Shown: positions 13,872-35,819 of the stretch, piece by piece
Layout: each line of letters begins with the position of its first letter
Numbering within the stretch: position 1 is the stretch's first letter
The notes under the pieces: model-generated
Database searches by the model: none
Told to the model about the DNA's origin: nothing
What the model saw: only the letters and a program-made list of their open reading frames with translations
DNA from: Caulobacter sp. FWC26
GTDB taxonomy: Bacteria; Pseudomonadota; Alphaproteobacteria; Caulobacterales; Caulobacteraceae
Direction: 5' to 3'
NCBI RefSeq assembly: GCF_002742645.2
Contig: NZ_CP033875.1
Coordinates: forward strand, 2,892,001 to 2,956,000
Length of the DNA: 64,000 bases
Translations under genes and position numbers: made by a program

Positions 13872-13886
13872 TGACACCGGTTTCCA
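13872..13886 (+). promoter_or_regulatory. Hexuronate-regulon operator (LacI-type motif)
   Basis: TGACACCGGTTTCCA, identical to the site at 34213-34227 next to the LacI-family gene and differing by one base from those at 26616 and 32997. It lies 62 bp before the hydratase-family gene and should control it together with the transporter gene behind it. Confidence 0.75.
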
Positions 13887-13948
13887 TTACAGACATCGCA
13901 ATCCCTGCAAAGCGGGGAAAGTGCCGGATTCGAGGGAGGACTTGCGGC

Positions 13949-14767
13949 GTGACCGTTTCTGAGGCCGACAGCGAGGTTTTCGCCCCCGCGGCCATCGCCC
14001 CCCAATTCGTCAAGGCTCGTCAGCAGGGCGTCAGCGTTCCAGGCTATCCAGGCGGCGTCATCCCCCCCAGCATGGCCGACGGCTACGCGGTCCAGGACAT
14101 CGCAATCGACCTCTGGCCCGACGAACTGGTCGGCTGGAAGGTGGGTCTCGTGCCGCCGCAGCACCGCGAGCGCCTGGGCGCCGAACGGCTGGCCGGCTGC
14201 ATCTTCAAGTCCAAGGTGCAGCAGGCGTCGTCCGAGAAGCCGAACACGTTCCGCGCCATCGCCGGCGGCTTCTGCGCGGTCGAGGCCGAGTTCATCATCC
14301 GCCTGGGTAAGGACGCGCCGGAAGGCAAGACCGAGTGGACCGCCGAGGAAGCCGCCGACTATGTGGGCGAGCTGCTGGTCGGCGTCGAGATCGCCGGCAG
14401 CCCCCTGAAGACCATCAATGCGCTCGGCCCCACCGTGGTGGCGTCAGACTTCGGCAACAATGATGGTCAGATCATTGGTCAGGCCATTTCCAACTGGCGC
14501 GACATCGCCTGGGAGGATATGCCGGTCGAGACCTTCATCAACGGCAAGTCGGTGGGTACCGCGACGGCCGCGACCATTCCGGGTTCGCCGCTCGCAGCGC
14601 TGGCCTTCCTGCTCGGAACCGTCGCCGCGCGCGGCAAGCCGCTGAAGAAGGGCCAGATCGTCACGACAGGCGCGACCACCGGGATTCACGACGTGGTCGC
14701 CGGCGACGTCGCCCATGTGAGTTTCGGCCCGTTCGGAACCGTGGATTGCGTAGCCGTCCCGGCCTGA
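13949..14767 (+). CDS. 2-keto-4-pentenoate hydratase / FAH-superfamily protein in hexuronate regulon
   Basis: A 272-aa protein of the 2-oxopent-4-enoate hydratase branch of the fumarylacetoacetate hydrolase superfamily. Start GTG 13949 follows GAGGGAGGA at good spacing. Family features: GWKVGLVPPQHRERLG near residue 58, AVEAEFIIRLGKD near residue 105 (metal-binding acidic residues expected here), VGVEIAGSPLKTI near residue 143, SDFGNNDGQIIGQ near residue 163 and GQIVTTGATTGIHDV near residue 236. It lies 44 bp before an ExuT-type transporter and behind a hexuronate operator, so it probably handles a uronate-derived 2-keto acid or related compound. The standard UxaC/UxuB/UxaA/KdgK/KdgA route has no step for it. 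Family is clear; substrate unknown. Confidence 0.82.
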   Translation: MTVSEADSEVFAPAAIAPQFVKARQQGVSVPGYPGGVIPPSMADGYAVQDIAIDLWPDELVGWKVGLVPPQHRERLGAERLAGCIFKSKVQQASSEKPNTFRAIAGGFCAVEAEFIIRLGKDAPEGKTEWTAEEAADYVGELLVGVEIAGSPLKTINALGPTVVASDFGNNDGQIIGQAISNWRDIAWEDMPVETFINGKSVGTATAATIPGSPLAALAFLLGTVAARGKPLKKGQIVTTGATTGIHDVVAGDVAHVSFGPFGTVDCVAVPA

Positions 14768-14811
14768 CGCCAACACCAACGCGATAAAAAACACAGGGGA
14801 AGGAAGCCAAG

Positions 14812-16089
14812 TTGATCGAGGTTCCAAAAGCGCCCGAACCCTCCGAGAAGATCGGACGGTATCGCTGGGTCATCGTCACGCTGCTGTTTCTGGCGATGGT
14901 CATCAACTATGTCGATCGCCAGACGATCGGCTTCCTGAAGACCGACCTGTCGCACGAGTTCGGCTGGAGCGAGAAGGACTACGCCAACCTCGTCTTCTAC
15001 TTCCAGCTCTCCTACGCCGTGGCCTACCTCGTCTGGGGTAAGATCATGGACAAGATCGGGGCGCGCTGGGGCTTCGGCATCGCCTTCCTGATCTGGCAAG
15101 TCGCGCACATCGCCCACGCCGGCGCGCGTGGCCTGACAGGCTTCATCTTCGCCCGCATGGCGCTGGGCGTCGGCGAGGCCGGAGGCTTCCCGGGCGGCAT
15201 CAAGGCCGTGACCGAGTGGTTCCCCAAGAAGGAGCGCGCCTTCGCCACCGGCATCTTCAACGCCGGCACCAATATCGGCGCCATCGTCACCCCGCTGGTC
15301 GTTCCGGCCATCGTGCTGACCTGGGGCTGGCAGATGGCGTTCATCGTCACGGGCGTCGCCGGTCTGATCTGGCTGCCGATCTGGCTGCTGGTCTATCGTA
15401 CGCCGCGCGAAACCAAGAACCTGTCCGCCGCCGAGCTGGCGCACATCGAGCAGGATCCGGCCGACCCGGTCGAAAAGATCGCCTGGACCAAACTGCTGAC
15501 CAAGCGCGAGACCTGGGCCTATGCCCTGGGCAAGTTCCTGATCGACCCGATCTGGTGGATGTTCCTGTTCTGGCTGCCGGATTTCCTGGGCAAGCGTTAT
15601 GGCCTGGACCTTAAGACTTTCGGCCCGCCGATCGTGGCGATCTATCTGCTGTCGGACGTCGGCAGCGTCGGCGGCGGCTGGCTATCCTCGCGCCTGCTCA
15701 AGAACGGCGCCTCGATCAACAAGGCCCGCAAGCTGACCATGCTGGTGTGTGCGCTGCTGGCCGTGCCGGTGATGTTCGCCTCCTACGCCAGCTCGGTCTG
15801 GCTGGCCGTGCTGATCATCGGTGTCGCCACCGCCGCCCACCAGGGCTTCTCGGCCAACCTCTACACCCTGCCGTCGGACGTGTTCCCGCGCGGGGCCGTG
15901 GGCTCGGTTGTCGGGATCGGCGGCATGCTGGGCGCGTTCGGCGGCATGGTGTTCTCCAAGTACATCGGCCAGGTGCTGGAAAGCATCGGCAGCTACACGC
16001 CGATCTTCATCGTGGCGGGCAGCGCCTATCTGGTCGCGCTGCTGGTCGTTCACCTGCTGGCGCCCAAGATGGAGCCGGTGAAGGTCTAG
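14812..16089 (+). CDS. exuT: MFS hexuronate transporter, ExuT type (anion:cation symporter family)
   Basis: A 425-aa, 12-helix major facilitator of the anion:cation symporter family that includes ExuT and other sugar-acid carriers. Start is TTG 14812, decided by the strong GGAAGGAAG just upstream. Diagnostic segments: RWVIVTLLFLAMVINYVDRQ in helix 1, MALGVGEAGGFPGGIKA in helix 4 and WFPKKERAFATGIFNAG before helix 5. Co-transcribed with the hydratase-family gene behind a shared operator, so hexuronate (galacturonate or glucuronate) uptake across the inner membrane is the best assignment. A strong terminator follows. Confidence 0.85.
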   Translation: MIEVPKAPEPSEKIGRYRWVIVTLLFLAMVINYVDRQTIGFLKTDLSHEFGWSEKDYANLVFYFQLSYAVAYLVWGKIMDKIGARWGFGIAFLIWQVAHIAHAGARGLTGFIFARMALGVGEAGGFPGGIKAVTEWFPKKERAFATGIFNAGTNIGAIVTPLVVPAIVLTWGWQMAFIVTGVAGLIWLPIWLLVYRTPRETKNLSAAELAHIEQDPADPVEKIAWTKLLTKRETWAYALGKFLIDPIWWMFLFWLPDFLGKRYGLDLKTFGPPIVAIYLLSDVGSVGGGWLSSRLLKNGASINKARKLTMLVCALLAVPVMFASYASSVWLAVLIIGVATAAHQGFSANLYTLPSDVFPRGAVGSVVGIGGMLGAFGGMVFSKYIGQVLESIGSYTPIFIVAGSAYLVALLVVHLLAPKMEPVKV

Positions 16090-16116
16090 TCACCGCGTTT
16101 CGATCGAGATCAATTT

Positions 16117-16145
16117 GGGCCGGGGAGCAATCCCCGGCCCTTTTT
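16117..16145 (+). terminator. Strong rho-independent terminator after exuT
   Basis: A perfect 10-bp stem GGGCCGGGGA / TCCCCGGCCC with a GCAA tetraloop (16127-16130), followed by five T. Confidence 0.92.
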
Positions 16146-16208
16146 GTTTGAACCCAGGACAGGGGATAACCGGCTGGCGCGGGGCGAAAAGCGCTCTAAG
16201 TAAGAGTC

Positions 16209-17435
16209 ATGCGCACGCCCTTGCTCACCGCCTCCGCCGCCCTCGCCGCCGCCTTGGCCGCCTGTGGTCCCGCTCCCGCTCAGCCCGGCCAGGCCGGCGC
16301 GCCGGTCGAGAGCCGCGCGCCGAACGCCCCGGAGCAGAAACCCGCCTTCGCCGGCCAGACCCGCGCGCCCGGCCTGAACTCCGCGATCAGCGGCCAGTAT
16401 CAGACGCTCGCCAGCGGCCTGGACCACCCCTGGGGCATGGCCTTCCTGCCGACCGGCGAGATCCTGGTGACCGAGCGGGCCGGCCGCCTGCGCGTCTATG
16501 GCAAGGACGGCAAGCTTTCCCCCGCCGTTACTGGCCTGCCGGCGATCTACGCCCAGGGCCAAGGCGGCCTGCTGGGCGTCGCCATCGATCCTGACTACGC
16601 CAAGAACGGCCTCGTCTACTGGTCCTACGCGGAGGAAACCGACGGCGTAAACGGCACGGCCGTGGCGCGTGGCAAGCTGGCCCTGGGCGCGGCGCCCAAG
16701 GTGGACGATGTGCAGGTGATCTGGCGCCAGACGCCGAAGATGGCCAGCGCCCTGCACTTCGGCGGCCGCCTGGTGTTTGGTCGTGACGGGAAGCTCTTCA
16801 TCACCACCGGCGAGCGATCGATCCCGGCCGGCCGTGTGCAGGCCCAGAACCTGGACGGCACCCTAGGCAAAGTCGTTCGGATCAACGCCGACGGCTCGAT
16901 CCCCAGCGACAATCCGTTCGTGAACACTGCCGGCGCCAAGCCGGACATCTGGTCGCTGGGCCATCGCAACATCCAATCGGCCACGCTGGATGCGCAGGGC
17001 CGCCTGTGGACCGTCGAGCACGGCGCACGCGGCGGCGACGAGCTGAACCGCCCAGAACCCGGCAAGAACTACGGCTGGCCGCTGATCACCTATGGCGAGG
17101 AGTATTCGGGCAAGCCGATCAGCGAAGGCGCGACGCAGAAGGCGGGGCTGGAACAACCCGTGTACTACTGGGACCCCGTCATCGCCCCGTCGGGCATGGC
17201 GCTCTATAACGGCGCCCTGTTCCCAGCGCTGAAGGGTAGCCTGCTGATCGGCTCGATGCGCGAGCAGCACGTCGCACGCCTGGTGCTCAAGGATGACAAG
17301 GTGGTCGGCGAGGAGCGCCTGTTCGCCGACATCGGCGGCCGCGTCCGCGACGTATCGGTCGGTCCCGACGGCGCGATTTACGTGCTGACCGACGAGGAAG
17401 ACGGCAAGCTGATCAGGATCACGCCGAAGGGCTGA
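16209..17435 (+). CDS. PQQ-dependent aldose sugar dehydrogenase, lipoprotein
   Basis: A 408-aa protein of the soluble glucose/aldose sugar dehydrogenase family (GSDH domain, six-bladed beta propeller, YliI-like). The N-terminus ends in [10 protein letters not shown], a lipobox, so it is probably anchored in the outer or inner membrane facing the periplasm. Propeller motifs include [20 protein letters not shown] near residue 73, [12 protein letters not shown] near residue 118, [19 protein letters not shown] near residue 180, [12 protein letters not shown] and [12 protein letters not shown] near residue 265, the last being the typical PQQ/calcium region. It oxidises aldoses with PQQ as cofactor; no pqq genes are in the window. 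Confidence 0.88.
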
Positions 17436-17443
17436 TCGAAAAA

Positions 17444-17474
17444 GGGGGCCTGGGCGCCGACGCCGAGGCCCCTT
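17444..17474 (-). terminator. Shared terminator hairpin between the sugar dehydrogenase gene and arsN1
   Basis: GGGGCCT (17445-17451) pairs with AGGCCCC (17466-17472). On the minus strand the stem is followed by a T-run (AAAAA on plus at 17439-17443), so it best serves the arsenic genes, and may act in both directions. Confidence 0.65.
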
Positions 17475-17984
17475 CTAGCCAAGATTGGCTTCGATGATCC
17501 GCTCCACGGCGACCACGTCGCGCCAGACGCCATCGAGCTTGCCGTGCTTCTCATGCACGCCCACCTCGCGAAATCCGACCGAGCGCAACAGAGCCAGGCT
17601 GGCCCGGTTCTCCACGAACACCCGCGACAACAGCTTCCAGAAACCTGCGTCCTCGGCGGCGGCGATCAAGGCCTTCATGGCCACCACCCCGACGCCCTGA
17701 CCGCGATGCGAACGGCGGACATAGACCGAGAACTCCGCCACGCCCGCATAGCAGCAGCGATCGGCGTAGGCGAAGGTCACCGCATAGCCGACCACCTGCC
17801 CGGCCGCATCGACCACGACCACGGCCGGATGCTTCCCGTCAAACCAGGCCAACACGTCCTCGGGCGTGCGCGGCGTGGTCTCGAAGGTGGCGACCCGGTC
17901 GGCGATGCCCTCGTTGTAGATCTCGGCCATAGCCGTCGCGTCATCGACGGCGGCTGGACGTACGGTCAGCGCAGCGGCGGTCAT
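17475..17984 (-). CDS. arsN1: GNAT N-acetyltransferase, ArsN1 type
   Basis: A 169-aa single-domain GNAT acetyltransferase. The acetyl-CoA loop is visible as [19 protein letters not shown] near residues 88-106, and [20 protein letters not shown] near 122 is the usual second half. Sequence pattern ([15 protein letters not shown]) is that of the phosphinothricin-acetyltransferase/ArsN1 group. ArsN1 proteins acetylate and so detoxify phosphinothricin-like organoarsenicals such as arsinothricin. It overlaps arsH by 4 bp (ATGA) in an arsenic gene cluster, which strongly favours ArsN1 over a generic acetyltransferase. Confidence 0.86.
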
Positions 17985-18736
17985 GCGGACGCCGCCTCGT
18001 GCTTCATGGCTTCGGCGGCCAGCGCCACATGCTCGGGAATCCGGCCTTGCGCTTTCCGCTCGCTGTAGCGATCGACCAGATAGTCGGCGCGGTCCCGCGT
18101 CAGCAGGGTGAACTTCACCAGCTCCTCCATCACATCGACGACCCGATCATAGTAGCTGGACGGCAGCATGCGATCGTTGTCGTCGAACTCGCGGAAGGCC
18201 ATCGCCACCGACGACTGGTTGGGAATGGTGATCATCCGCATCCAGCGGCCCAAGAGGCGCAGCGTGTTGACCGCGTTGAACGACTGAGACCCGCCGCTGA
18301 CCTGCATCACCGCCAGGGTCTTGCCCTGGGTGGGGCGCACGCTGCCGATCTCCAGCGGAATCCAGTCGATCTGCGCCTTCATGATCCCCGTGATGGCGCC
18401 ATGCCGTTCGGGGCTGCACCAGACCTGCCCTTCCGACCACTGAGACAGCGCGCGCAGCTCCTGCACCTTGGGGTGGTCGGGGCCGGTCGCGTCGGGCAGG
18501 GGCAGATCGCGAGGATCGAAGATCCGCGTCTCACACCCCAGCGCCTCAAGAATGCGGGCGGCTTCTTCAACCAGCAAGCGGCTGAACGAGCGCTCCCGCA
18601 GTGACCCGTACAGCAGCAGGATGCGCGGCGGATGGCTCGCGCGAACATCGACCTCAAGGCGGTCGCCATCGATCTTGGCCAAGAACTTGGCATCCAGGGC
18701 GGGGAACTCGGACAAACGCGCCTCCAGCATCGTCAT
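17981..18736 (-). CDS. arsH: Arsenical resistance NADPH-flavin reductase ArsH
   Basis: A 251-aa flavodoxin-like protein. [20 protein letters not shown] near residues 40-60 is the ArsH FMN-binding signature (GSLRxRS), and [20 protein letters not shown] and [19 protein letters not shown] are strongly conserved in the family. ArsH oxidises trivalent organoarsenicals and reduces flavin with NADPH in the cytosol. ATG 18736 is chosen; ATG 18760 is in frame but would put the start inside the arsR operator. Divergent from arsR with only 33 bp between starts and translationally coupled to arsN1. Confidence 0.92.
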
Positions 18737-18757
18737 TGATCTGTCGAATAATTCTAG

Positions 18758-18772
18758 CATATTGGAAATATG
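18758..18772. promoter_or_regulatory. Putative ArsR operator, perfect palindrome
   Basis: CATATT-GGA-AATATG is a perfect 6-3-6 inverted repeat in the arsH/arsR divergent region. Its right arm contains the arsR start codon and its left arm contains an alternative arsH start, so bound repressor would cover both promoters or start sites. Confidence 0.6.
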
Positions 18773-19123
18773 GAATCGAAAGCGGCTGTCAACATGCTGT
18801 CGGCCTTGGGCCACGAAGGGCGCCTGGCGATCTTCCGCCTCCTGGTGCAGGCCGGCCCTGCGGGCGTCGCCGCCGGCGAGATCGCGCGCACGCTGAGCGT
18901 GCTGCCAAACAGCCTGTCGGCCAATCTCAACGTCCTGTCCCACGCCGGATTGATCGCCTCGCGCCGCGACGGCCGCTCGATCATCTACAAGGCCGACTAT
19001 GACGCGATGAGCGGGCTGCTGGGCTTTCTGATGGAGGACTGCTGCGCCGGCGCGCCGCAGATCTGCGCCCCGCTGAGCGCCATCGTCAGCGGCGGCATGG
19101 CTTGCGGGACGGCCAAGGCGTGA
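18770..19123 (+). CDS. arsR: ArsR-family arsenite-responsive repressor
   Basis: A 117-aa winged-helix repressor of the SmtB/ArsR family: [20 protein letters not shown], then recognition helix ([20 protein letters not shown]) and wing ([13 protein letters not shown]). The E. coli-type As(III) site CVC in the DNA-binding helix is absent. Instead Cys91, Cys92 and Cys99 sit in the C-terminal part ([11 protein letters not shown]), like the C-terminal vicinal-cysteine site of the Acidithiobacillus-type ArsR. Start ATG 18770 lies within a palindrome and has no ribosome site; ATG 18794 is an alternative. GTGA overlap with aqpS follows. Confidence 0.92.
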
Positions 19124-19794
19124 GCCCGTTCGATACGCCCCGCCGCCTCGTCGCCGAAGCCCTGGGGTCGGCCCTGCTGCTGGCCGTCGTGGTCGGCTCT
19201 GGGATCATGGGCGAGCGCCTCTCGGACGGAAATGTCGCCATCGCGCTGCTGGGCAACACCCTGGCGACGGGAGCGGCGCTGGTCGTGCTGATCTGGGTCT
19301 TCGGCCCGATCTCCGGCGCCCACTTCAATCCGGCAGTCACCCTGGTCGCGGCCCTGCGGCGCGAACTGCCGATCGCCCTGGCGCTGGCCTATCCGCTGGC
19401 CCAAGTGCTGGGCGGGATCGCGGGCGTCTGGGGTGCGCACGCCATGTTCGGCGAACCGATCCTGCAAGTCTCGACCAAGCTGCGCTCCGGGGGCGGCCAA
19501 GCCTTCGCCGAGATGGTGGCGACCTTTGGCCTGGTGGCGACGATCCTGGGCGTCAGCCGTTTTCGGCCCGACAGCACGGCGATGGCCGTAGGGCTTTACA
19601 TCACGGCCGCCTACTGGTTCACCGCCTCGACCTCGTTCGCCAATCCGGCGGTCACGGTGGCGCGCAGCCTGTCGGACACCTTCGCCGGGATCGCGCCGAC
19701 CAGCGCGCCGGCCTTCATTCTCGCCCAACTGGTCGGCGCCCTGCTCGCGGCGGCGCTGTTTGGCTGGCTTCTCAAGACGGACACCTCTCGATGA
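19120..19794 (+). CDS. aqpS: Aquaglyceroporin of ars operon, AqpS type
   Basis: A 224-aa, six-helix major intrinsic protein. Both channel NPA motifs are intact: AHFNPAVT near residue 66 and FANPAVT near residue 175. GTG 19120 is the start because it overlaps the arsR stop (GTGA) and matches the family N-terminus ([21 protein letters not shown]). In Sinorhizobium meliloti the same gene order arsR-aqpS-arsC with arsH is known; there AqpS lets arsenite formed by ArsC leave down its gradient in place of an ArsB/Acr3 pump. No pump gene is present here either. Confidence 0.9.
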
Positions 19795-20201
19795 CCGACA
19801 CCGCCTTCCCGATCACCATCTTTCACAACCCGGCCTGCGGGACCTCGCGCAACACCGTGGCCCTGGTCCAGGCCGCCGGCTATGCGCCGCAGATCGTCGA
19901 GTACCTGAAGACCGGCTGGACCCGCGAGCAGCTGCAGGACCTCGCCGCCCGGTCCGGCGGGTCGCTGCGCGCCCTGATGCGGGAAAAGGGCACGCCAGCC
20001 GAGACCCTGGGCCTGCTGGCCGACGACGTCTCGGACGATCGTCTGCTGGACGCGATGGTCGAGCACCCGATCCTGGTGAACCGCCCCATCGTCGTCACGC
20101 CTAAGGGCGTAAAGCTGTGCCGTCCGTCCGAGCTGGTGCTCGACCTGCTGGACCGCAAACCCGACCAGTTCAGCAAGGAAGACGGCGAGGTCGTGATCTA
20201 G
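19791..20201 (+). CDS. arsC: Arsenate reductase, glutaredoxin-linked ArsC
   Basis: A 136-aa ArsC of the glutathione/glutaredoxin type. The catalytic Cys is in FHNPACGTSRNT near residue 15, and the anion-binding arginines expected in the family are in LVNRPIVVTPKG near residue 90 and KLCRPSE near residue 104. It reduces arsenate to arsenite in the cytosol. Start overlaps the aqpS stop (ATGA), completing a three-gene arsR-aqpS-arsC transcript. Its stop codon shares three bases with the stop of the convergent antiporter gene (sequence CTAG). Confidence 0.94.
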   Translation: MTDTAFPITIFHNPACGTSRNTVALVQAAGYAPQIVEYLKTGWTREQLQDLAARSGGSLRALMREKGTPAETLGLLADDVSDDRLLDAMVEHPILVNRPIVVTPKGVKLCRPSELVLDLLDRKPDQFSKEDGEVVI

Positions 20202-21562: not shown

Positions 21563-21713
21563 GTCCGTAAGCCCCCCAAATCACCGTACCGGCTTTGCGC
21601 CTTGTGGCATGCCGCGCAGACTAGGATCGCGGACGCAAACCATCGATCGCTCACTTTGACAGCCTTGTCACGCGCTGATTCCGGCGGTTTTCGTCCCAGA
21701 CGCTTTCCGAGGC

Positions 21714-22799: not shown

Positions 22800-22878
22800 G
22801 GTCGAATCCTGCCGAAAGAGGTCGCGCACTCTCGCGCTGAAAGATGGAAATCTCTAGGCTCGAAACTCACGCTCTTCC

Positions 22879-22992
22879 GTGTCATCCCGGCCGGAAGCCC
22901 GCTTGCGGGCTGTAGAGCCGGGACCCAGGGGCCGGCGCACTGCGGTTCCCCCTGGGTCCCGGCTCTCCGCTACGCTGCGGCCGGGATGACAC
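22879..22992. repeat. Palindromic intergenic element, copy 1 (114 bp)
   Basis: Bounded by a perfect 14-bp inverted repeat (GTGTCATCCCGGCC at 22879-22892 and its complement at 22979-22992) with a second inner pair around CGGGACCCAGGGG / CCCCTGGGTCCCG. A related copy lies at 30483-30586. It fills the gap between pip and the DUF1244 gene and would fold into a long hairpin. Confidence 0.85.
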
Positions 22993-24118: not shown

Positions 24119-24457
24119 ATGCCCCTGCCTCGAAAGCCACGACTCAAGCGCTCCACCGGCGGCACCCGCGCCAGCCGGCGCTTCATCCGTGACAAGGCTC
24201 GCCTGAAAGCCATGCTCATGGCCCGGTTCATCGCGCTTCACGAGCAGATCGAACGCCGCAAGCAGTACACCTATCGCGGCGCGTACGGCGCGATCAGCTA
24301 TTTCAACCCTGGAGAGCCCATTCCACCGGGCTACCAGAAGGTCGAATACGACGAGGACGGCAATGAAACACCGCCCTGCGTCAAAGAAAAAGTCCCCGGC
24401 CTTGCGACCGAGGACTTCTCCTTGTTCTTTAGAGAGCGAGAGACGCTTAGCGGATGA
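24119..24457 (+). CDS. Hypothetical protein, basic N-terminus
   Basis: A 112-aa frame starting at ATG 24119 with GGGAGA upstream; TTG 24101 is an alternative. Residues 1-50 are strongly basic (PRKPRLKRSTGGTRASRRF), then a helical stretch and a Tyr/Pro-rich segment (GAISYFNPGEPIPPGYQK). No family is recognised. Coding character fades after about residue 90, and the last 11 bp overlap the convergent kdgK stop. It lies directly behind a repeat element, so it may be a lineage-specific gene or a non-coding frame. Confidence 0.42.
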   Translation: MPLPRKPRLKRSTGGTRASRRFIRDKARLKAMLMARFIALHEQIERRKQYTYRGAYGAISYFNPGEPIPPGYQKVEYDEDGNETPPCVKEKVPGLATEDFSLFFRERETLSG

Positions 24458-25553
24458 CCCGCGCGCCCTTGCCCTTCATCACGGCCTCGACCTCTTCCTT
24501 GCGCACCATCGAGGTGTCGCCCGGCGTGGTCATGGCCAGGGCGCCGTGAGCCGCGCCGTACTCGACGGCGGCCTGGGGACCCTTGCCTTCCATGAAGCCG
24601 AAGGCCAGGCCCGAGGCGAAGCCGTCGCCGCCGCCGACGCGGTCGTAGATCTCGAGGTTCTCCCGCATCATCGAGGCGTAGAACTGGCCGCCGGCGTACA
24701 GGATCGCCGACCAGTCGTTGACCGAGGCGGTCTTGGCGTTGCGCAGGGTGGTGGCGGCGACCTTGAAGTTCGGGAACTCCTTCACGGCCGTCTGGATCAT
24801 CTTCTTGAAGTTGGCCGGGTCGATCGAGCTGATGTGCTCGTCCAGGCCTTCCACTTCAAAGCCGAGGCAGGCGGTGAAGTCTTCCTCGTTGCCGATCATC
24901 ACATCGACGTACTGGGCGATGTGACGATTGACCTTCTGGGCGCCTTCCTTGCCGCCCTGCGACTTCCACAGGCTGGCGCGGTAGTTCAGGTCGTAAGAGA
25001 CGACGGTGCCGTACTTGCGGGCCACTTCGACGGCTTCGATCACGGCTTCCGCCGTGTTCGAAGCCAGGGCCGCAAAGATGCCGCCGGTGTGGAACCAGCG
25101 CACGCCTTCTTCGCCGAACAGCTTTTCCCAGTTCACTTCACCGGGGCGGATCTGCGAGGCGGCCGAGTGACCCCGGTCGCTGCAGCCCAGGGCCGGGCGA
25201 ACGCCGAAGCCCTTTTCGGTGAAGTTCAGACCAACGCGCGTGTTGCGGCCCAGGCCGTCGAACTCGCGCCAGATGATGTGGGAGGTGTCGACACCGCCCT
25301 GCATCATCAGATCCTCGACCAGCCAGCCCAGGTCATTCACCGGCAGGGCGGTGACGGCCGTCGAGCGCTTGCCCCAGCACTTCTTGAAAGCGCGGGCGAC
25401 GTTGTATTCGCCGCCGCCTTCCCAGACCTGGAACTGACGGGCGTTACGAACCCGGCCGAAGCCGGGGTCGAAACGCAGCATCACTTCACCGAAGCTGGCG
25501 CAGTCCCACTTCGTCTCCGAAGCCGGGCGGATGTTGAGGATATTGTCGGTCAT
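24447..25553 (-). CDS. kdgK: 2-keto-3-deoxygluconate kinase
   Basis: A 368-aa PfkB/ribokinase-family sugar kinase that phosphorylates 2-keto-3-deoxygluconate (KDG) to KDPG. Substrate-side GEVMLRFDPGFGRVRNARQF near residue 22 and EGGGEYNVARAFKKCWG near residue 45 are KdgK-like, and the ATP-binding/catalytic motif DRVGGGDGFASGLAFGFMEG near residue 300 contains the base Asp. The 6-bp gap to kdgA upstream makes a kdgA-kdgK operon controlled from the double operator at 26615-26663. It links hexuronate breakdown to the Entner-Doudoroff aldolase. Confidence 0.93.
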   Translation of the reverse strand: MTDNILNIRPASETKWDCASFGEVMLRFDPGFGRVRNARQFQVWEGGGEYNVARAFKKCWGKRSTAVTALPVNDLGWLVEDLMMQGGVDTSHIIWREFDGLGRNTRVGLNFTEKGFGVRPALGCSDRGHSAASQIRPGEVNWEKLFGEEGVRWFHTGGIFAALASNTAEAVIEAVEVARKYGTVVSYDLNYRASLWKSQGGKEGAQKVNRHIAQYVDVMIGNEEDFTACLGFEVEGLDEHISSIDPANFKKMIQTAVKEFPNFKVAATTLRNAKTASVNDWSAILYAGGQFYASMMRENLEIYDRVGGGDGFASGLAFGFMEGKGPQAAVEYGAAHGALAMTTPGDTSMVRKEEVEAVMKGKGARVIR

Positions 25554-25559: not shown

Positions 25560-26234
25560 TTAGGCCTTCCCACGAACCTTCTTGATCAGATCGACGGTCT
25601 CGCGAACCTTCTTGGAGATGCCCGCGTAGTCCTTGGCGTCCAGCAGCTCTTGCGTGATCAGCTTGGAGCCCATGCCGGCGGCGACGATGCCCGCGCCGAA
25701 CCACTTCTTCACCGAAGCCTCGTCCGGATCGACACCGCCCGTCGGCATGATGCGGGTCCAGGGCATCGGGCCCAGCACCGCCTTGACGAAATCGGGACCG
25801 CCGACCGACGAACCCGGGAACACCTTGACGATCTCGCAGCCCAGCTCTTCGGCGTACGAGATTTCCGAGGCCGAACCGCAGCCCGGCGAGTACGGGATCT
25901 TGCGACGGTTGCAGACCTTGGCGACATCGGCGTTCAGGATCGGGCCGACGACGAACTTGGCGCCGTTGGCGATGTAGATGCCGGCGGTCGGCGCATCGAC
26001 GATCGAGCCCACGCCCATGATCACGCGCGGATCGGCCTTATCGAAGTAACGGGTGACTTCGTAGAAGACGTGGCTGGCGAAATCGCCGCGGTTGGTGAAC
26101 TCGATGCAGGGCGCGCCGCCGTCGGCGCAGGCCTGGATCACGTTCTTACAGACCTCGACGTCCGGGTGATAGAACACCGGAATGACGCCCTGCTCCATCA
26201 GGGCGGTCAGCACCGCCATACGGTCTTTCACCAT
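25560..26234 (-). CDS. kdgA: KDPG aldolase
   Basis: A 224-aa class I aldolase (Eda/KdgA) that splits 2-keto-3-deoxy-6-phosphogluconate into pyruvate and glyceraldehyde 3-phosphate. ATG 26234 is chosen for the AGGAGTTTGAG before it. Family features: IEFTNRGDF near residue 45, SPGCGSASEI near residue 118, CEIVKVFPGSSVGGPDFVKA near residue 133 with the Schiff-base Lys in KVFP, and RIMPTGGV near residue 160. First gene of the kdgA-kdgK operon. Caulobacter uses the Entner-Doudoroff pathway for glucose, so the enzyme may serve both routes. Confidence 0.94.
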   Translation of the reverse strand: MVKDRMAVLTALMEQGVIPVFYHPDVEVCKNVIQACADGGAPCIEFTNRGDFASHVFYEVTRYFDKADPRVIMGVGSIVDAPTAGIYIANGAKFVVGPILNADVAKVCNRRKIPYSPGCGSASEISYAEELGCEIVKVFPGSSVGGPDFVKAVLGPMPWTRIMPTGGVDPDEASVKKWFGAGIVAAGMGSKLITQELLDAKDYAGISKKVRETVDLIKKVRGKA

Positions 26235-26614: not shown

Positions 26615-26663
26615 ATGACACCGGTTACCAAAAGTGGCTTGGCCACTTCGCTACCGGTGTCAT
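26615..26663. promoter_or_regulatory. Double hexuronate operator for kdgA-kdgK
   Basis: ATGACACCGGT (26615-26625) and ACCGGTGTCAT (26653-26663) form a perfect 11-bp inverted repeat. The left copy extends to the full TGACACCGGTTACCA (26616-26630), identical to the complement of 32997-33011; the right copy matches 12 of 15. AGTGGC-TTG-GCCACT, a small palindrome, lies between them. Two sites 32 bp apart centre to centre (about three helical turns) could bind cooperatively. Confidence 0.72.
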
Positions 26664-26775
26664 TTGCAGATAACCAGAAACTGATAAGGAGCGCAAGCGC
26701 CGTTACAAGGCGAAATGGACAATCATAACCTCTTGGAATCCCGTGCCTTCTCCGGCCTGGGAGAACGCCGCTCCA

Positions 26776-29505: not shown

Positions 29506-29691
29506 GCGCGGACTCCAGGGACCGCGCGAGAGGCGGTCCCGATCAGGAATGGATCTCGAGAACACGTCGTCGCGCCGGGCCGTTCCCCGGCGCTTGACGT
29601 AGCGGCGCCCTCTAGCGCGCTTCACCGGGCGGGAAAAGCCGCCCGGCACGATGGTTGCGCTACCATCGTATTTCTGCGCGTTTTTCTTTCG

Positions 29692-30459
29692 CTAGCGAGC
29701 CAGCCAGCCGCCATCCACGGGCAGAGTAATGCCCTGAACGTAGTCCGAGGCCGACGACGCCAGAAACACTGCAGCGCCGCCAATGTCCTCCGGACGCCCC
29801 CAGCGACCGGCGGGAATACGGGCCAGGATGGCGGCGTTCCGGTCAGCGTCGTTGCGCAGGGCCTCGGTATTGTTGGTGTCGAAATAGCCCGGCGCGATGG
29901 CGTTGACGTTGATCCCCTTGGTCGCCCACTCATTGGCGAGAATCTTGGTCAGACCCGCCAAGCCCGACTTGGAAGCCGTGTAGGACGGGACCCGGATGCC
30001 GCCCTGGAAGGACAGCAGCGAGGCGATGTTGATCACCTTGGCCTGACCGCCCTCGACGCCCTGCTTGAGCGCCTGCTTGGCGAAGGCCTGGGTCAGGAAG
30101 AAGACGACCTTCAGGTTGGTGTCCATCACCGCGTCCCAGTCGGCCTCGCTGAACTCGATCGAGTCCGCGCGACGGATGATGCCGGCGTTATTGACCAGGA
30201 TGTCGACCTTGCCATAGGCGGCGACGGTTTCGTCGACGACGCGCTGAACGGGCTCGGTCGAGCCGAAGTCGGCCTTGATCGACAGGAACTTACGACCCAG
30301 GGCCTCAACAGCCTTCTGCGTGTCGACCGGCTCACTGCGGCCCGCGGCGGCGATATCCGCGCCGGCGGCGGCCAGGGCGATGGCGATCCCCTGCCCGATC
30401 CCGGTGTTGGCGCCGGTGACGAGCGCGACCTTGCCTTCGAGGCTGAACGGATTGGCCAT
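29692..30459 (-). CDS. kduD: 2-dehydro-3-deoxy-D-gluconate 5-dehydrogenase
   Basis: A 255-aa short-chain dehydrogenase that interconverts 2,5-diketo-3-deoxygluconate and KDG with NAD. TGANTGIGQG near residue 16 is the nucleotide loop, NNAGIIRRADS near residue 90 the structural NAG motif, and YTASKSGLAGL near residue 160 the catalytic Tyr-x3-Lys. The internal pattern and the adjacent kduI identify KduD among SDRs. It is last in the uxaC-kduI-kduD run, separated from kduI by a palindromic element. Confidence 0.88.
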   Translation of the reverse strand: MANPFSLEGKVALVTGANTGIGQGIAIALAAAGADIAAAGRSEPVDTQKAVEALGRKFLSIKADFGSTEPVQRVVDETVAAYGKVDILVNNAGIIRRADSIEFSEADWDAVMDTNLKVVFFLTQAFAKQALKQGVEGGQAKVINIASLLSFQGGIRVPSYTASKSGLAGLTKILANEWATKGINVNAIAPGYFDTNNTEALRNDADRNAAILARIPAGRWGRPEDIGGAAVFLASSASDYVQGITLPVDGGWLAR

Positions 30460-30482
30460 GTCGAGTTCCTGTTCAAATTAGC

Positions 30483-30586
30483 TGTCATCCCGGACGACCT
30501 GAAAGGTCGATCCGGGACCCAGGGGCCAGCGGCAAGGCGACCGCCCCTGGGTCCCGGCCCTACGCTGCGCTCCGGCCGGGATGACA
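30483..30586. repeat. Palindromic intergenic element, copy 2 (104 bp)
   Basis: Bounded by the 11-bp inverted repeat TGTCATCCCGG (30483-30493) / CCGGGATGACA (30576-30586), with inner CGGGACCCAGGGGC / GCCCCTGGGTCCCG arms. Same organisation and largely the same sequence as 22879-22992. It lies within the kduI-kduD intergenic gap, so it should be transcribed as a hairpin in the operon mRNA. Confidence 0.85.
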
Positions 30587-30609
30587 CCGGAGCACGGTGG
30601 CCGAAGGCC

Positions 30610-31449
30610 CTATTTCAGCTGGCAGATGTCCAGCACGTTCATGTCGGTGTAGTCGAGGTTCTCGCCGCCCATCGCCCAGATGAAGGTATAGTTGGCGGTG
30701 CCCGAACCCATGTGGATCGACCACGGCGGGCTCATCACGGCTTCCTCGTTGGCGATCACGATGTGACGCATCTCGTCCGGCTCGCCCATGTAGTGGAAGA
30801 CCCGGTCGTTCTCGCCCAGGCCGAAGTAAAAGTAGGCTTCCGAACGACGATCGTGCAGGTGGGGCGGCATGGTGTTCCAGACGCTGCCCGGCTTCAGCAC
30901 GGTCATGCCCAGCAGCAGCTGGGCCGACTTGCAGGTGGTCGGCACGATGTACTGGTAGATCGTGCGCTCGTTGGAAGTCTCCAGCGCGCCACGCTCCAGC
31001 GGGATCGCGTCGGCGAAGGCCAGCTTCTTGGTCTCGAACGCGGCATGGGCCGGAAGGCTGACCAGGTAGAAGCGCGCGGCGCCGTCGACGCCTTCGAAGG
31101 TGACGTCCTTGGCGCCCATGGTGACGTACAGGCCGTCACGCGGCACGATCTCGTAGACCACGCCGTCGACGGTGACCTTGCCGGTCGTCTCGCCGACATT
31201 GATGAGGCCCAGCTCGCGACGCTCCAAAAACGGGTGGCCAGCGGCCGAGGCGGGCTCGGTCTGGTCGGGCAGCTTGATCGGGCTGGTGGCCACGACGCCG
31301 CCGACGACAAAGCGTTCGGCGTGATTGTAGGTCAGGACGATCTGGCCGTCCTGGAACAGACCCTGCATCAGGTAACGGTCGCGCAGGTCGTCATTGCTGA
31401 CCGCGAACATCATGTCCGGATGGGTGGCGTGATAGGTCTTGGCGAACAT
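30610..31449 (-). CDS. kduI: 5-keto-4-deoxyuronate isomerase
   Basis: A 279-aa cupin-type isomerase that converts 5-keto-4-deoxyuronate to 2,5-diketo-3-deoxygluconate. The zinc site is visible: [15 protein letters not shown] near residue 197 supplies two His and the Glu, and [15 protein letters not shown] near residue 243 supplies the last His. Length equals the E. coli enzyme. In pectin degraders KduI acts on unsaturated uronate produced by lyases; KduI has also been implicated in handling galacturonate and glucuronate. No polysaccharide lyase is in the window. Between uxaC (24 bp) and kduD. Confidence 0.93.
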
Positions 31450-31473
31450 CGGGAAGTCTCCGGAAAGGGTGTT

Positions 31474-32937
31474 CTATTCGGCGGCCGCGCGCAGCGTGGC
31501 GGGGCGAGCCCAGTCCGGACGCTGGTCGAGCTTGTAGGCTTTCTTGGGCAGGTTATAGGTCAGGTCGACGATCAGTTCCTCGGCCTCGACCAGGTCCATA
31601 CGATGCTCGGCCACCATGCGGGCCAGGAAGGCGCTGTCGACACGGCGGGCCACGTCGTGGCGAGCCGGGATCGAGAGGAAGGCGCGCGTGTCGTCGTTGA
31701 AGCCGACGGTGTTGTAGAAGCCGGCGGTCTCGGTGACCTGCTCGCGGAAGCGCATCATGCCTTCCGGGCTATCGTGGAACCACCAGGACGGGCCCAGCTT
31801 CAGCACTGGATAGTGGCCGGCCAACGGAGCCAGTTCGCGGCTGTAGGTCGTCTCGTCCAGCGTGAACAGGATGATCGACAGGCGCGGATCGTTGCCCAGA
31901 CGGGTCAGCAGCGGCTTCAGCGCATCGACATATTCGGTGCGCATCGGGATGTCCGCGCCCTTGTCGCGACCATGCGAGTTCAGCAGGCCCACATTGTGGT
32001 TGCGGTGCGAGCCGGGGTGGATCTGCATGACCAAGCCATCATCGAGGCTCATCTTGGCCATCTCGGTCAGCATTTGGGCGCGGAACAGCTCCGCCTTCTC
32101 CGGCGTGACGTCCCCCTTCACCAGGCTGTTGAACAGCGCCTCGGCCTCGACATCGGAGAGGTCGGCGGTCGCCGCCGTCGGATGGCCGTGATCGGAAGAG
32201 GTTGCGCCGGCGTCGATGAACGCCTGGCGACGCAGGCGGTGCGCCTCCAGATAGCTCTTCCAGCTATAGACGTCCTGCCCCGAGGTCTCGGCGAACCGCT
32301 CGAAGGCGCGCGGGCCACGCTCGTCCTCGAAGTCGATGACCGCGTCGGGACGGTAGGCGGTGATCACGTGGCCGCCCCAGCCGCTTTCACGGATGGCGGC
32401 GTGATGCTGCAGGCTTTCGTGCGGCCCCTCGGTGGTGGCCAGCGTCTCGATGTTGAACCGGTCGAACAGCGCGCGCGGACGGAAGGCGTCCGTGGCAAGC
32501 GCGGCATTGATGCGGTCGAAATAGTCGTCGGCGTTCGAAGCCTCGAGGAACTCAGTGAAGCCAAAGACCTTGGCGAATACGTGATTCAGCCAGACCCACG
32601 ACGGCGTGCCGCGGAAGAGGTGGAAGTTCGAAGCGAACACCCGCCAAGCGTCACGGGGGTCGGTGTCGGGAACCCCGGCCTTCGAGCGCACCTTCAGCGC
32701 CTCCAGGCTGACGCCCTGGCTATAGAGCATGCGGAACAGGTAGTGGTCGGGCGCCAGCAACAGATCGGTAGCGTCCTGGAAGGGCGCGTTGGTCGCGAAC
32801 CAGGACGGATCAGTATGGCCGTGCGGGCTGATGATCGGCAGATCCTTGACCAGCGCATAGAGGCCGCGCGCATAGGACCGCATTGTCGGATCGGACGGGA
32901 AAAGACGATCCTCGTGAAAATTCAGAGGTCTGGCCAT
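31474..32937 (-). CDS. uxaC: Uronate isomerase
   Basis: A 487-aa amidohydrolase-superfamily enzyme that isomerises D-glucuronate to D-fructuronate and D-galacturonate to D-tagaturonate. ISPHGHTDPSWFA near residue 36 carries the His-x-His metal pair, GAxxxDHG-like TSSDHGHPTA near residue 242 and MQIHPGSHRNHN near residue 313 are family-typical, and SYYDTVGFNDDTRAF-like FYNTVGFNDDTRAFLSIPARHD is near residue 420. First gene of uxaC-kduI-kduD, with an operator 60 bp upstream. It is the entry step for both uronates. Confidence 0.95.
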   Translation of the reverse strand: MARPLNFHEDRLFPSDPTMRSYARGLYALVKDLPIISPHGHTDPSWFATNAPFQDATDLLLAPDHYLFRMLYSQGVSLEALKVRSKAGVPDTDPRDAWRVFASNFHLFRGTPSWVWLNHVFAKVFGFTEFLEASNADDYFDRINAALATDAFRPRALFDRFNIETLATTEGPHESLQHHAAIRESGWGGHVITAYRPDAVIDFEDERGPRAFERFAETSGQDVYSWKSYLEAHRLRRQAFIDAGATSSDHGHPTAATADLSDVEAEALFNSLVKGDVTPEKAELFRAQMLTEMAKMSLDDGLVMQIHPGSHRNHNVGLLNSHGRDKGADIPMRTEYVDALKPLLTRLGNDPRLSIILFTLDETTYSRELAPLAGHYPVLKLGPSWWFHDSPEGMMRFREQVTETAGFYNTVGFNDDTRAFLSIPARHDVARRVDSAFLARMVAEHRMDLVEAEELIVDLTYNLPKKAYKLDQRPDWARPATLRAAAE

Positions 32938-32996
32938 GGCTTAGCGTCTTCTCCCTTCGTCGATGGCGGCTTCGCAGACCGCCGCTCGTGTCCGCT

Positions 32997-33011
32997 TGGT
33001 AACCGGTGTCA
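32997..33011 (-). promoter_or_regulatory. Hexuronate operator upstream of uxaC
   Basis: TGGTAACCGGTGTCA; its complement TGACACCGGTTACCA is identical to 26616-26630. It sits between the LacI-type gene stop and the uxaC start, 60 bp before uxaC, in good position to block the uxaC promoter. Confidence 0.75.
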
Positions 33012-33045
33012 TCACTCGATGCAAGCATCAGCGCGTGAAGCTTGC

Positions 33046-34119
33046 TCAGGCCGGAACGGGCCCGGAAGACTCACGAATAACCAGGTTTGGTTCCATCTTG
33101 GTGACGTCGCGCGGCTCGCGACGTTCACCGCCGATCAGCTTCTCGACGGCGATACGACCAATCTCGCGCGTCGGGGTGTGGATGGTCGTCAGCGGCGGCC
33201 AGACGGCCTGAGCGATCTGGAAATCATCGAACCCCACGACGGTCAGATCCTGGGGCACCGAAAGCCCCGCCTTTCGGGCCGACTGCAGTACGCCGGCGGC
33301 CATTTCGTCATTGCCGCAGAAGATGGCCGTCGGACGCGGGGTCCGCGACAGCAGCAGGTCGCCACAGGCCATGCCCGACTCGAAGGTATAGGCCCCCTGG
33401 ACGATATCCTCCGGCGCCAGCGCCAACCCGGCCTCGGCCAAAGCATCCTCAAAGCCCCCTCGCCGCTCGTGCGACGAACGGAAGCTCTCCGGACCCGAAA
33501 TAAAGGCGATGCGCTTGTGGCCAAGCTCGACGATGTGCCGTGCGGCCTGGGCGCCGCCCATGCGGTCATGGCCGACGATCATGTGCTCAGGCTTGTCCAA
33601 CTCGACCGAAGCGATCCGGATATAGGCGCAACCGATCTCGTTCAGCAGCTTGGCCACCCGCTCGTCCTCGGACACCGACGGCGGCAGCACGACGCCATAC
33701 AGTTTCTGCCGCTCGACGAACGCGCGGATGTCAGTGAGGAAAGTCGGGCTGGCGCGATTACAGGGATGCACCACGAGTTCGAACCCGGAACCGCGCATAC
33801 CGTCCAGCAGGCCAAGCTGCATGTTGACGACGTACTGCGGATTGGGATTGTCGTAGATCATGCCGATCAGGAACGATCGGCGGAAGGCCAATCCCCGCGC
33901 CTGAGGGTCTGGCGCGTAGCCCCATTCGGCGATCACAGCCTCAATCCGCTCACGGGTCTCGTCGCGCACGAAGGGCGACTGGTTGATCACCCGCGACACC
34001 GTCTTTTTCGACACGCCGGCCAGACGCGCGATGTCGTTGATCGTGGCCCGCCGCCGTCCGCCTTCGACGCTGGTCTCGTTTTCATCGGGGATCGAGGACG
34101 GCGTCTTGGAAGGGCTCAC
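33046..34119 (-). CDS. LacI-family repressor, probable hexuronate regulator
   Basis: A 357-aa LacI/GalR protein. After about 24 polar residues comes the HTH and hinge: TINDIARLAGVSKKTVSRVI near residues 26-45, then INQSPFVRDETRERIEAVI and the hinge-helix region PQARGLAFRRS. The periplasmic-binding-protein-like effector domain follows (LIGMIYDNPNPQYV, HIVELGHKRIAFISGP, TAIFCGNDEMAAGVLQ, LTVVGFDDFQIA). It is flanked by uxaC and divergent uxaA and by operator copies on both sides, so hexuronate catabolism is the clear target and a uronate derivative the likely inducer. The site at 34213 allows autoregulation. Confidence 0.9.
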   Translation of the reverse strand: MSPSKTPSSIPDENETSVEGGRRRATINDIARLAGVSKKTVSRVINQSPFVRDETRERIEAVIAEWGYAPDPQARGLAFRRSFLIGMIYDNPNPQYVVNMQLGLLDGMRGSGFELVVHPCNRASPTFLTDIRAFVERQKLYGVVLPPSVSEDERVAKLLNEIGCAYIRIASVELDKPEHMIVGHDRMGGAQAARHIVELGHKRIAFISGPESFRSSHERRGGFEDALAEAGLALAPEDIVQGAYTFESGMACGDLLLSRTPRPTAIFCGNDEMAAGVLQSARKAGLSVPQDLTVVGFDDFQIAQAVWPPLTTIHTPTREIGRIAVEKLIGGERREPRDVTKMEPNLVIRESSGPVPA

Positions 34120-34212
34120 GGGGTTTCCAGCAGCTTCGGGCGTTTTCTTTTGTCATACTCCAGCCGACCCAAGCTCGCCAACATAAGGCGGAACATTCGA
34201 TTGCGAGATGAT

Positions 34213-34227
34213 TGACACCGGTTTCCA
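34213..34227 (+). promoter_or_regulatory. Hexuronate operator between the LacI-type gene and uxaA
   Basis: TGACACCGGTTTCCA, identical to 13872-13886. It lies 51 bp before the chosen uxaA start and 93 bp before the divergent repressor gene. Confidence 0.75.
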
Positions 34228-34278
34228 TCCTGCCGATAGCGGGCGATGACAGCAGACAGGCGACGACGATCACCCCTG

Positions 34279-35787
34279 ATGACCCAATCGACCTCGATCC
34301 CTGACGAATCGATCCACCTGGTGGACTCGCGCGATCATGTCGCCACTGCGCTGCGTGATCTCACCACTGGCGAAAAGGTGCGGCTGCACGGCCAGGCGCT
34401 GATCGTCGGCGCGGACATTCCCAAGGGCCACAAGATCGCGACGCGTCCGGTGCGATCCGGCGAGGATGTCTTGAAATACGGCTGGCCGATCGGACGCGCC
34501 ACCCGTGACATCGCGGCAGGCGATCACGTTCACGTCCATAACGTCGCCACCCGCCTCGAAGGCGTAGAGGACTACAGCTTTTCCCCCGCCCCGGTGACAC
34601 GCCCCCCGGCCGCTGATGCAAGAACATTCCAGGGCTTTCGCCGCAAGAACGGCAGGGCCGGGACGCGGAACGAAATCTGGGTTCTGTGCACCGTCGGCTG
34701 CGTCGCCAACACCGCGCGCCGGATCGCAGAAAAAGCCAACCAGCGCTTTAGCGGCCGGGTCGATGGCGTTCATGCCTTCCCCCACCCATTTGGATGCTCG
34801 CAACTCGGCGACGATCTGACCCATACGCGCAAGCTGATCGCCGCGCTGGCCAGTCATCCCAACGCCGGCGGCGTGCTGATCCTGGGCCTCGGCTGCGAGA
34901 ACAACCAGCTCAAGACGCTGCTCGAAAGCGCGCCCGATATCGATCGGGAACGACTGAGAAGCTTCACGACCCAGATGGTCGAGGACGAACTCGAAGATGG
35001 CCTGGCGGCCGTGGAAGCGCTGGTCGAAATCGCCGAGCGCGATCAGCGCGAACCGGTCCCGATCTCCCAACTGGTCGTCGGCCTGAAATGCGGCGGATCG
35101 GACGGCTTCTCGGGAGTCACCGCCAATCCGCTGGTCGGGCGGATCGCCGACAAGGTCGCCGAGGCCGGTGGCACCCCCGTACTGACGGAAATTCCCGAGA
35201 TATTCGGAGCCGAGAACGTTCTTCTGCAGCGCGCCGCGACACAGGAAGTGTTCGACGCTGCGGTCGCGGTCATCGACGATTTCAAGCGCTACTTCATCGA
35301 AGCCAACCAGCCGATCTATGAAAATCCGTCTCCGGGCAATATCGCGGGCGGCATCACCAGCCTCGAGGAAAAATCCCTTGGCGCGGTGCAGAAGGGCGGG
35401 CGCTCGCCGCTCGTGGAAGTTCTGCGCTATGGCGACAAGGTCGGTCGCCACGGCCTGACACTGCTGGAAGCGCCCGGTAATGACGCGGTGTCGTCCACGG
35501 CCCTGACAGCGGCCGGGGCGACGGTGATCCTGTTCACCACCGGCCGCGGAACGCCACTGGGCTTTCCCGCGCCGACCCTGAAGATCGCCTCCAACTCCGG
35601 ACTGGCGCAGCGCAAGCCGGGCTGGATCGACTTCGATGCGGGCCAGGTGCTGGAAGGCGTTTCAATGGACGCTGCGGCTGACCGACTGATGGACCTTGTG
35701 ATCGCAACCGCTTCCGGCAAGGCGACCAAGGCCGAACAGAACGGCGAACGGGAGATCGCGATCTGGAAATCCGGAGTCACCCTCTGA
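34279..35787 (+). CDS. uxaA: Altronate dehydratase
   Basis: A 502-aa UxaA-type dehydratase converting D-altronate to 2-keto-3-deoxygluconate. An N-terminal SAF-like domain (residues 1-90; IPKGHKIATRPVRSGEDVLKYG is typical) precedes the catalytic part with GFRRKNGRAGTRNEIWVL near residue 118, VHAFPHPFGCSQLGDD near residue 165, ILGLGCENNQ near residue 205 and LKCGGSDGFSGVTANPLVG near residue 272; these Cys are candidate metal ligands. Start uncertain: ATG 34246 is in frame, but ATG 34279 gives the family length. Divergent from the LacI-type gene, followed by uxuB. Confidence 0.92.
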   Translation: MTQSTSIPDESIHLVDSRDHVATALRDLTTGEKVRLHGQALIVGADIPKGHKIATRPVRSGEDVLKYGWPIGRATRDIAAGDHVHVHNVATRLEGVEDYSFSPAPVTRPPAADARTFQGFRRKNGRAGTRNEIWVLCTVGCVANTARRIAEKANQRFSGRVDGVHAFPHPFGCSQLGDDLTHTRKLIAALASHPNAGGVLILGLGCENNQLKTLLESAPDIDRERLRSFTTQMVEDELEDGLAAVEALVEIAERDQREPVPISQLVVGLKCGGSDGFSGVTANPLVGRIADKVAEAGGTPVLTEIPEIFGAENVLLQRAATQEVFDAAVAVIDDFKRYFIEANQPIYENPSPGNIAGGITSLEEKSLGAVQKGGRSPLVEVLRYGDKVGRHGLTLLEAPGNDAVSSTALTAAGATVILFTTGRGTPLGFPAPTLKIASNSGLAQRKPGWIDFDAGQVLEGVSMDAAADRLMDLVIATASGKATKAEQNGEREIAIWKSGVTL

Positions 35788-35804
35788 AATCCGCAAAGCT
35801 GGAT

Positions 35805-35819
35805 TGCCACCGGTGTCCA
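35805..35819 (+). promoter_or_regulatory. Hexuronate operator upstream of uxuB
   Basis: TGCCACCGGTGTCCA, 13 of 15 matching the 34213 copy. It lies in the 85-bp gap between uxaA and uxuB, implying that uxuB can be controlled separately or that repression is reinforced inside the operon. Confidence 0.6.

Follow-up and report, generated by a model that had tools for sequence, protein, structure and literature searches.

A LacI-family repressor of Caulobacter sp. FWC26 and its predicted hexuronate regulon, with candidate operators at pdhA and typA

Repressor, operators and catabolic genes in the window

A 64,000-nucleotide stretch of the Caulobacter sp. FWC26 genome (contig NZ_CP033875.1, positions 2,892,001 to 2,956,000; hereafter the window) carries a LacI-family repressor gene and, scattered around it, copies of a short operator-like motif. 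A preliminary description had taken these for one LacI-type repressor and one operator governing a scattered hexuronate regulon, and the conserved sites around the repressor support this view. We predict, at a probability of roughly 0.86, that the protein represses its own gene and, across the genome, a regulon for hexuronates, both free and derived from pectin, with added operators at pdhA, typA and pntA. The sites, their conservation, their co-occurrence with the repressor and the codon constraint in pdhA were obtained by computation.

The repressor reading frame is present on the minus strand (33046..34119), as previously described, and encodes a protein of the LacI/GalR family, with an N-terminal LacI helix-turn-helix (PF00356, E 1.3e-20) and a periplasmic-binding-protein-like ligand domain (PF13377, E 3e-40); its recognition helix contains SKKTVSRV. 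A palindromic operator with a central CpG, of the kind found in this family, flanks the gene at 34213 and at 32997. This placement between two motif copies, already pointed out, is borne out by 30 repressor loci of the genus, that of this genome among them, in which both copies are conserved: the first site has at most one mismatch in 30/30, and the second at most one in 26/30 and two or three in the other four. The genome holds 12 LacI-type genes. Recognition helices were read by regular expression in 10 of them (the repressor and nine paralogues), among which SKKT is found in this repressor only, and in this genome no other LacI gene lies within 20 kb of an exact TGACACCGGTNNC site. The matches of a phage search with the repressor were all below 60% identity.

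The putative operator is imperfectly palindromic: its core is TGACACCGGT, and the second half (NNC) is loose. A search of the window with the pattern TGACACCGGTTWCCA, allowing up to three mismatches, gave 7 matches in all; 100 dinucleotide shuffles averaged 1.64 (sd 1.17) and never exceeded 5. All six sites listed in the preliminary description were recovered, with their positions and strands, and the seventh match lies at 51052 with three mismatches. Conservation is deep for five of the six sites, the exception being the lineage-specific one at 35805.

The operator at 13872..13886 (plus strand, no mismatch, conserved) lies in the promoter of a hydratase-transporter pair, where together with the preceding base it occupies the 17-bp spacer between TTGTCA and TACAGA. 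Exact TGACACCGGTTTC is present at the hydratase promoter in 16/16 orthologous loci; TTGTCA is kept in 15/16 of them, and the downstream hexamer begins with TA. A 17th match to the hydratase is a 36%-identical paralogue and has no site. The hydratase (13949..14767, plus strand) is an MhpD-like member of the fumarylacetoacetate-hydrolase superfamily (PF01557, 28.4 bits against a gathering score of 23.9), which matches four NCBIfam equivalogs, each below its cut-off, MhpD included (50.2 against 350 bits). Its best match among solved structures is 1sv6, a 2-keto-4-pentenoate hydratase, with which it aligns an ExE pair and a later E, residues that we take to be metal ligands. The preliminary description placed every motif copy upstream of a gene fitting hexuronate uptake or catabolism; the gene directly behind this copy is a hydratase with no known hexuronate role. 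The second gene of the pair (14812..16089, plus strand; PF07690) encodes a major facilitator superfamily (MFS) sugar-acid transporter resembling D-galactonate transporters, the best NCBIfam match of which (TIGR00893) is below cut-off, and which may be specific for hexuronates.

Two operators precede kdgA, one at 26616..26630 (plus strand, no mismatch, conserved) and the other at 26648..26662 (minus strand, three mismatches), with centres 33 bp apart. Both had been noticed before; what had been missed is that they form a conserved, possibly phased pair, since 12/14 kdgA loci carry two exact sites; L143 carries one and L150 none. Counting distinct pairs of sites no more than 150 bp apart in all the loci together gives 42, spaced by 21-23 bp (2 pairs), 30-35 bp (31), 44-45 bp (7) and 96 bp (2), with none at 36-43 bp. 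The helical-phase statistic R is 0.84 at 10.5 bp, yet 0.82-0.83 at 11, 12 and 13 bp, so that the case for binding to the same face of the DNA comes only from the empty 36-43 bp range and is not decisive. The gene kdgA/eda itself (25560..26234, minus strand) encodes KDPG aldolase (PF01081; NF005499 above cut-off), and beside it, on the same strand, lies a PfkB-family kinase gene (24447..25553; PF00294), kdgK by similarity and context, which would encode the kinase for 2-dehydro-3-deoxy-D-gluconate (KDG), all NCBIfam KDG-kinase matches being below cut-off.

The operator at 32997..33011 (minus strand, no mismatch, conserved) lies upstream of uxaC, encoding glucuronate isomerase (31474..32937, NF002794 above cut-off). 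On the same minus strand follow kduI, for 5-dehydro-4-deoxy-D-glucuronate isomerase (30610..31449, NF002091 above cut-off), and kduD, for 2-dehydro-3-deoxy-D-gluconate 5-dehydrogenase (29692..30459, TIGR01832 above cut-off); the order and strand of the three genes make a single operon with uxaC first probable. Between the divergent repressor and uxaA genes, the operator at 34213..34227 (plus strand, no mismatch, conserved) suggests autoregulation, and by eye a TTGACA overlaps it on the uxaA side. The uxaA product (34246..35787, plus strand) belongs to the altronate/galactarate dehydratase family (PF04295, PF20629; NCBIfam galactarate dehydratase below cut-off). A weak operator with two mismatches (35805..35819, plus strand) precedes a gene for a mannitol-dehydrogenase-family hexuronate reductase of uxuB/uxaB type (35873..37321, plus strand, start approximate; PF01232/PF08125, best NCBIfam match fructuronate reductase, below cut-off). 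This last site was matched, with one mismatch to TGACACCGGTNNC, in 7/32 loci, one strain being counted twice, and the other 25 have no match.

Free hexuronates are broken down by UxaC, a reductase and UxaA, and the unsaturated products of pectate lyases by KduI and KduD, the two branches meeting at KDG. Both branches are represented in the window. In the block from 24.4 to 37.3 kb, phosphoenolpyruvate carboxylase is the one gene identified as foreign to the pathway; some 8 kb separate this block from the hydratase-transporter pair upstream of it.

Extent of the regulon and pairing with the repressor

The motif is not confined to the window. In the 4.87-Mb genome, TGACACCGGTNNC has 14 matches and its reversed control 1, and our own gene calls put one of the 14 inside pdhA and the other 13 upstream of genes. 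The 22 kb given earlier as the extent of the regulon is therefore too small, and its six sites, real as they are, left out targets beyond the window, typA and pdhA among them, which could not be seen from it; the possibility, raised at the same time, that the motif is frequent at unrelated promoters is answered by its rarity. By position, the targets in this genome are a TonB receptor (two sites, 32 bp apart), a pectic-acid lyase, pdhA (inside the gene), the hydratase, kdgA (two sites), uxaC, repressor/uxaA, a LamG-domain protein, a GH9 gene with a divergent DUF885 gene, a carboxylesterase, typA and pntA. In 12 relatives, TGACACCGGTTNCC gave 2-8 matches each, 64 in all, and its control none. 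In 7 more genomes, TGACACCGGTNNC gave 8-23 matches each, 115 in all (palindromic sites being counted on both strands), and the reversed control 0-2 each, 5 in all.

The site at the LamG-protein promoter (G000:C3:2997569; L070) is exact in 11 of the 12 relatives searched, G019 being the one without it. The gene divergent from it looks, by eye, like a carboxylase gene. The operator upstream of pntA, encoding the alpha subunit of NAD(P) transhydrogenase (G000:C3:3921377-3921389; L074), is also present in G001 and G008, i.e. in 3 of the 8 genomes scanned. The gene behind this site had been considered as alanine dehydrogenase, an identity that was dropped on re-examination. In G013 the usual kdgA was not found; this genome has a different KDPG aldolase (L322, G013:C1:198970), 30% identical, with both NF004325 and TIGR01182 above cut-off, and a palindromic operator lies about 200 bp upstream of this non-orthologous gene. 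Several of the sites listed in other genomes fall within coding sequence and are probably chance matches.

Comparison of loci around relatives of the repressor strongly supports, at the level of sequence, that the motif follows the repressor. Exact TGACACCGGTNNC occurs somewhere in the fetched stretch in 76/80 loci, including 19/21 from Lysobacteraceae, in which the repressor shares 53-57% identity. Among loci L249-L295, 47 in number and mostly of distant relatives (L289, at 90% identity, is included), kduI was found in 35, with an operator within 400 bp upstream in 28, and the hydratase in 19, with an operator at 8. In the 21 Lysobacteraceae loci, kduI carries an operator in 19/19 cases and the hydratase, found in 12, in 3/12, and uxaC was found in none of the 21 within the fetched flanks. 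The oldest shared core thus seems to consist of the repressor and kduI-kduD, often with the hydratase nearby. The operator pattern in Lysobacteraceae means that "pectin/unsaturated uronate" may describe this core better than "hexuronate uptake", and with a core of this composition the inducer would belong to the unsaturated-uronate branch or to a step below it, KDG being the simplest choice. Within the genus the MhpD-like hydratase invariably belongs to the predicted regulon, and it also lies near the repressor in the 12 Lysobacteraceae loci, i.e. in a second bacterial class.

Candidate operators in pdhA and upstream of typA

The gene that holds the in-gene site encodes the pyruvate dehydrogenase E1-alpha subunit (TIGR03182, 510 against 394 bits), and the exact operator covers approximately codons 16-19 (G000:C3:2197195-2197207; L064:1501). 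In the first 30 loci, the site stands at reading-frame offset 44/45 (41 in two of them) in 30/30. It is exact in 40/44 genus genomes; G158 has one mismatch, and G017, G025 and G029 have no site. The match had at one stage been set aside as a chance coding match, a view that was dropped given the conservation of site and codons across pdhA genes. Within the family, pdhA was judged in 133 loci, which leave out genomes with fragments or no match (e.g. G023, G032, G114, G120) and the order-level genomes G037-G060.

An exact operator is also present upstream of typA/bipA, which encodes a translation GTPase (G000:C3:3786637-3786649; L073:1501). The identity of the gene was taken from its orthologue in L119 (G007; TIGR01394, 939 against 757 bits), the G000 and G007 proteins being 93% identical. 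Orthologous typA loci were obtained for 30 of 57 matching genomes (the genus genomes G012, G015, G017, G023, G025, G026 and G029 being without a locus), and the exact site is present in 25/30. G017, examined separately, is 99% complete; no repressor orthologue was found in it and its typA region has no site. The typA operator is closely followed by another palindrome, TGACAGCGCTGTCA, in L209, L210 and L212.

The pattern is GC-rich and has 11 fixed letters, but that chance produced all these matches to it is hardly credible. A few matches are plainly coding, e.g. that in a large reading frame beside a pyruvate-kinase-like gene in G008 and G001 (names by eye), but the counts stand far above those of the reversed controls, in this genome and in the seven others, and the positions are conserved within diverged flanks, which excludes chance for the conserved sites. 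A more serious alternative, which we still consider rather unlikely, is an ordinary hexuronate regulon in which the repressor acts on catabolic genes only, the matches at typA, pdhA and pntA belonging to another regulator or to unrelated conserved sequence. It draws on the number of LacI-type genes in the genome, on the absence of an obvious link between uronates and either typA or pdhA, and on several observations that weigh against the wider regulon. Related recognition helices occur in paralogues (SIKT in three, SPKT in one), and in G013 a 46%-identical paralogue (G013:C1:47268-48254) adjoins a TGACACCGGTATC site (G013:C1:48420; L301) and a TonB receptor, so that some sites could be served by a paralogue. 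In the 133 pdhA loci, the repressor was found with the site in 40 and without it in 36, and was not found with the site in 1 and without it in 56, "not found" resting on the E-value limits of the search; the Fisher p of 1e-11 for this table overstates independence because one genus dominates it. The exact site is absent from G158, G025 and G029, which hold the repressor, and from the repressor-bearing genomes of groups g25 (15/15), g13 (9/9), g17 (2/3) and g14, g20, g28, g31 and g32 (7/7 together), some g25 genes keeping only the half TGACACCGGAAC; conversely, G012 (draft, 93% complete) has the site and no repressor orthologue was found in it. At typA, five of the 30 loci (G011, G014, G019, G028, G035) lack the site in genomes that have the repressor at 68-71% identity, which suggests that the regulon gained or lost typA along one line of descent. 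On the other hand, 40/41 site-bearing family genomes hold the repressor; G017 and G065, which lack an exact pdhA site, have as their only LacI match a protein 40% and 39% identical, respectively (E limits 1e-60 and 1e-70); and the loose half at typA and pdhA (GTGTC, TTACC, TTTCC, AAC, GGC) varies much as it does at kdgA, uxaA and lacI. In group g17, G145 is the single site-bearing genome among three with the repressor, and 13 without the repressor are also without the site. The pdhA site is thus nearly confined to holders of the repressor, the repressor does not imply the site, and the signal comes mostly from one clade.

Two further alternatives concern one gene each. The pdhA match could reflect a protein-level motif, since it is read as (D/E/A)-T-G-V, the TGV residues are kept in 40/44 genus pdhA genes and some g25 genes read DTG without the site, but we judge this improbable. 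The tail in which these residues stand is variable in sequence as well as length, and outside the genus the exact site occurs in 1/89 pdhA loci. In 40 aligned genes, the codons of the site are ACC in 39, GGT in 40 and GTC in 39; GGT makes up only 14% of pdhA glycine codons, and among 37 conserved glycine columns a single codon is kept in only three, the other two having the usual GGC. G065, from another genus of the family and with no repressor orthologue found, reads GAC-GCC-GGC-GTC at the position of the site. As to typA, the site could serve activation rather than repression, since it lies upstream of the -35 region, its centre 35-36 nt before a conserved GGATAA and about -47 from an assumed start. 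Its near-fixed spacing to this GGATAA or GGCTAA-like element in 20/25 site-bearing loci would fit, as would the lack, by eye, of a conserved -35 in the alignment, and Cra-type LacI proteins activate from upstream sites. We regard activation as doubtful: the transcription start is assumed, LacI-type repressors can act from such positions too, and the other five site-bearing loci lack the GGATAA element (L192 and L195 read AGATAA; L209, L210 and L212 have another layout), a point that also counts against the typA site as proposed here.

Proposed mechanism and comparison with known systems

We infer binding by the repressor and, promoter by promoter, repression rather than activation. Without uronate, the repressor would block its target promoters, sitting between the -35-like and -10-like elements at the hydratase-transporter promoter and occupying, at the promoters of kdgA and several TonB receptors, paired sites roughly three or four helical turns from each other. 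A catabolite, most likely the shared intermediate KDG, would then release it. Caulobacter-type genomes would have gained operators outside catabolism, early in the pdhA reading frame, before typA and, in some genomes, before pntA, and the pdhA site would act as a roadblock. On balance, we lean towards the further view that the repressor is a lineage-specific global regulator sensing pectin-sugar catabolism, which tunes pdhA through an in-frame operator and TypA through a promoter-proximal one. The entry of uronate carbon would thereby be coupled to pyruvate oxidation and ribosome function, and the N-terminal peptide of the pdhA product would owe its sequence to selection for DNA binding and not to selection on the protein.

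If this is so, the conserved operator within this central metabolic gene would offer a clear example of dual coding, a protein sequence constrained by a transcription factor site, and a sugar repressor acting on typA would link the identity of the nutrient to a ribosome-associated GTPase. The regulon also draws attention to two proteins: the MhpD-like hydratase, uncharacterised but a fixed part of the uronate regulon throughout the genus, and the LamG-domain protein, which probably has a pectin-related role.

For several lineages, hexuronate regulons of LacI type are listed in RegPrecise, and the catabolic part of the present regulon may well be catalogued already. This part is real and ordinary in kind; what is new is the conserved site inside pdhA and the site at typA. 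In E. coli, KdgR belongs to the IclR family. The ExuR and UxuR proteins of this species are of the GntR family (PMC9369180). These regulators control the same catabolic steps as the repressor described here with proteins of different families, which points to non-orthologous replacement.

Closer parallels are found within the LacI family, for which the accessible portion of Ravcheev et al. 2014 (PMC4052901) gives six groups for glucuronate/galacturonate. The LacI hexuronate regulators ExuR, KdgR, UxaR and UxuR named there likewise control glucuronate/galacturonate catabolism, and the present repressor resembles them in its putative operators at uxaC, uxaA, kdgA and kduI-kduD; in the same portion, this regulon is not described, and the hexuronate groups include no named Caulobacter member and neither typA nor pdhA. 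Among the matches listed from the open-licence literature, itself seen in part, no report of such a repressor at typA or pdhA was found, which is weak evidence of novelty. GluR (CC2053), a Caulobacter regulator that the accessible text of PMC4052901 describes, is also of the LacI family and also acts on central carbon metabolism, with zwf-pgl-edd-glk, pykA, gnl-gfo, ppdK and sucABCD as its targets, none of those stated there being among the genes assigned to the 14 exact sites. E. coli FruR/Cra, which that same text names, is a further LacI-type protein joining sugar catabolism to central carbon metabolism. Its targets differ from those of the present repressor, for which pdhA, with the operator inside the gene, typA and pntA are the extra ones.

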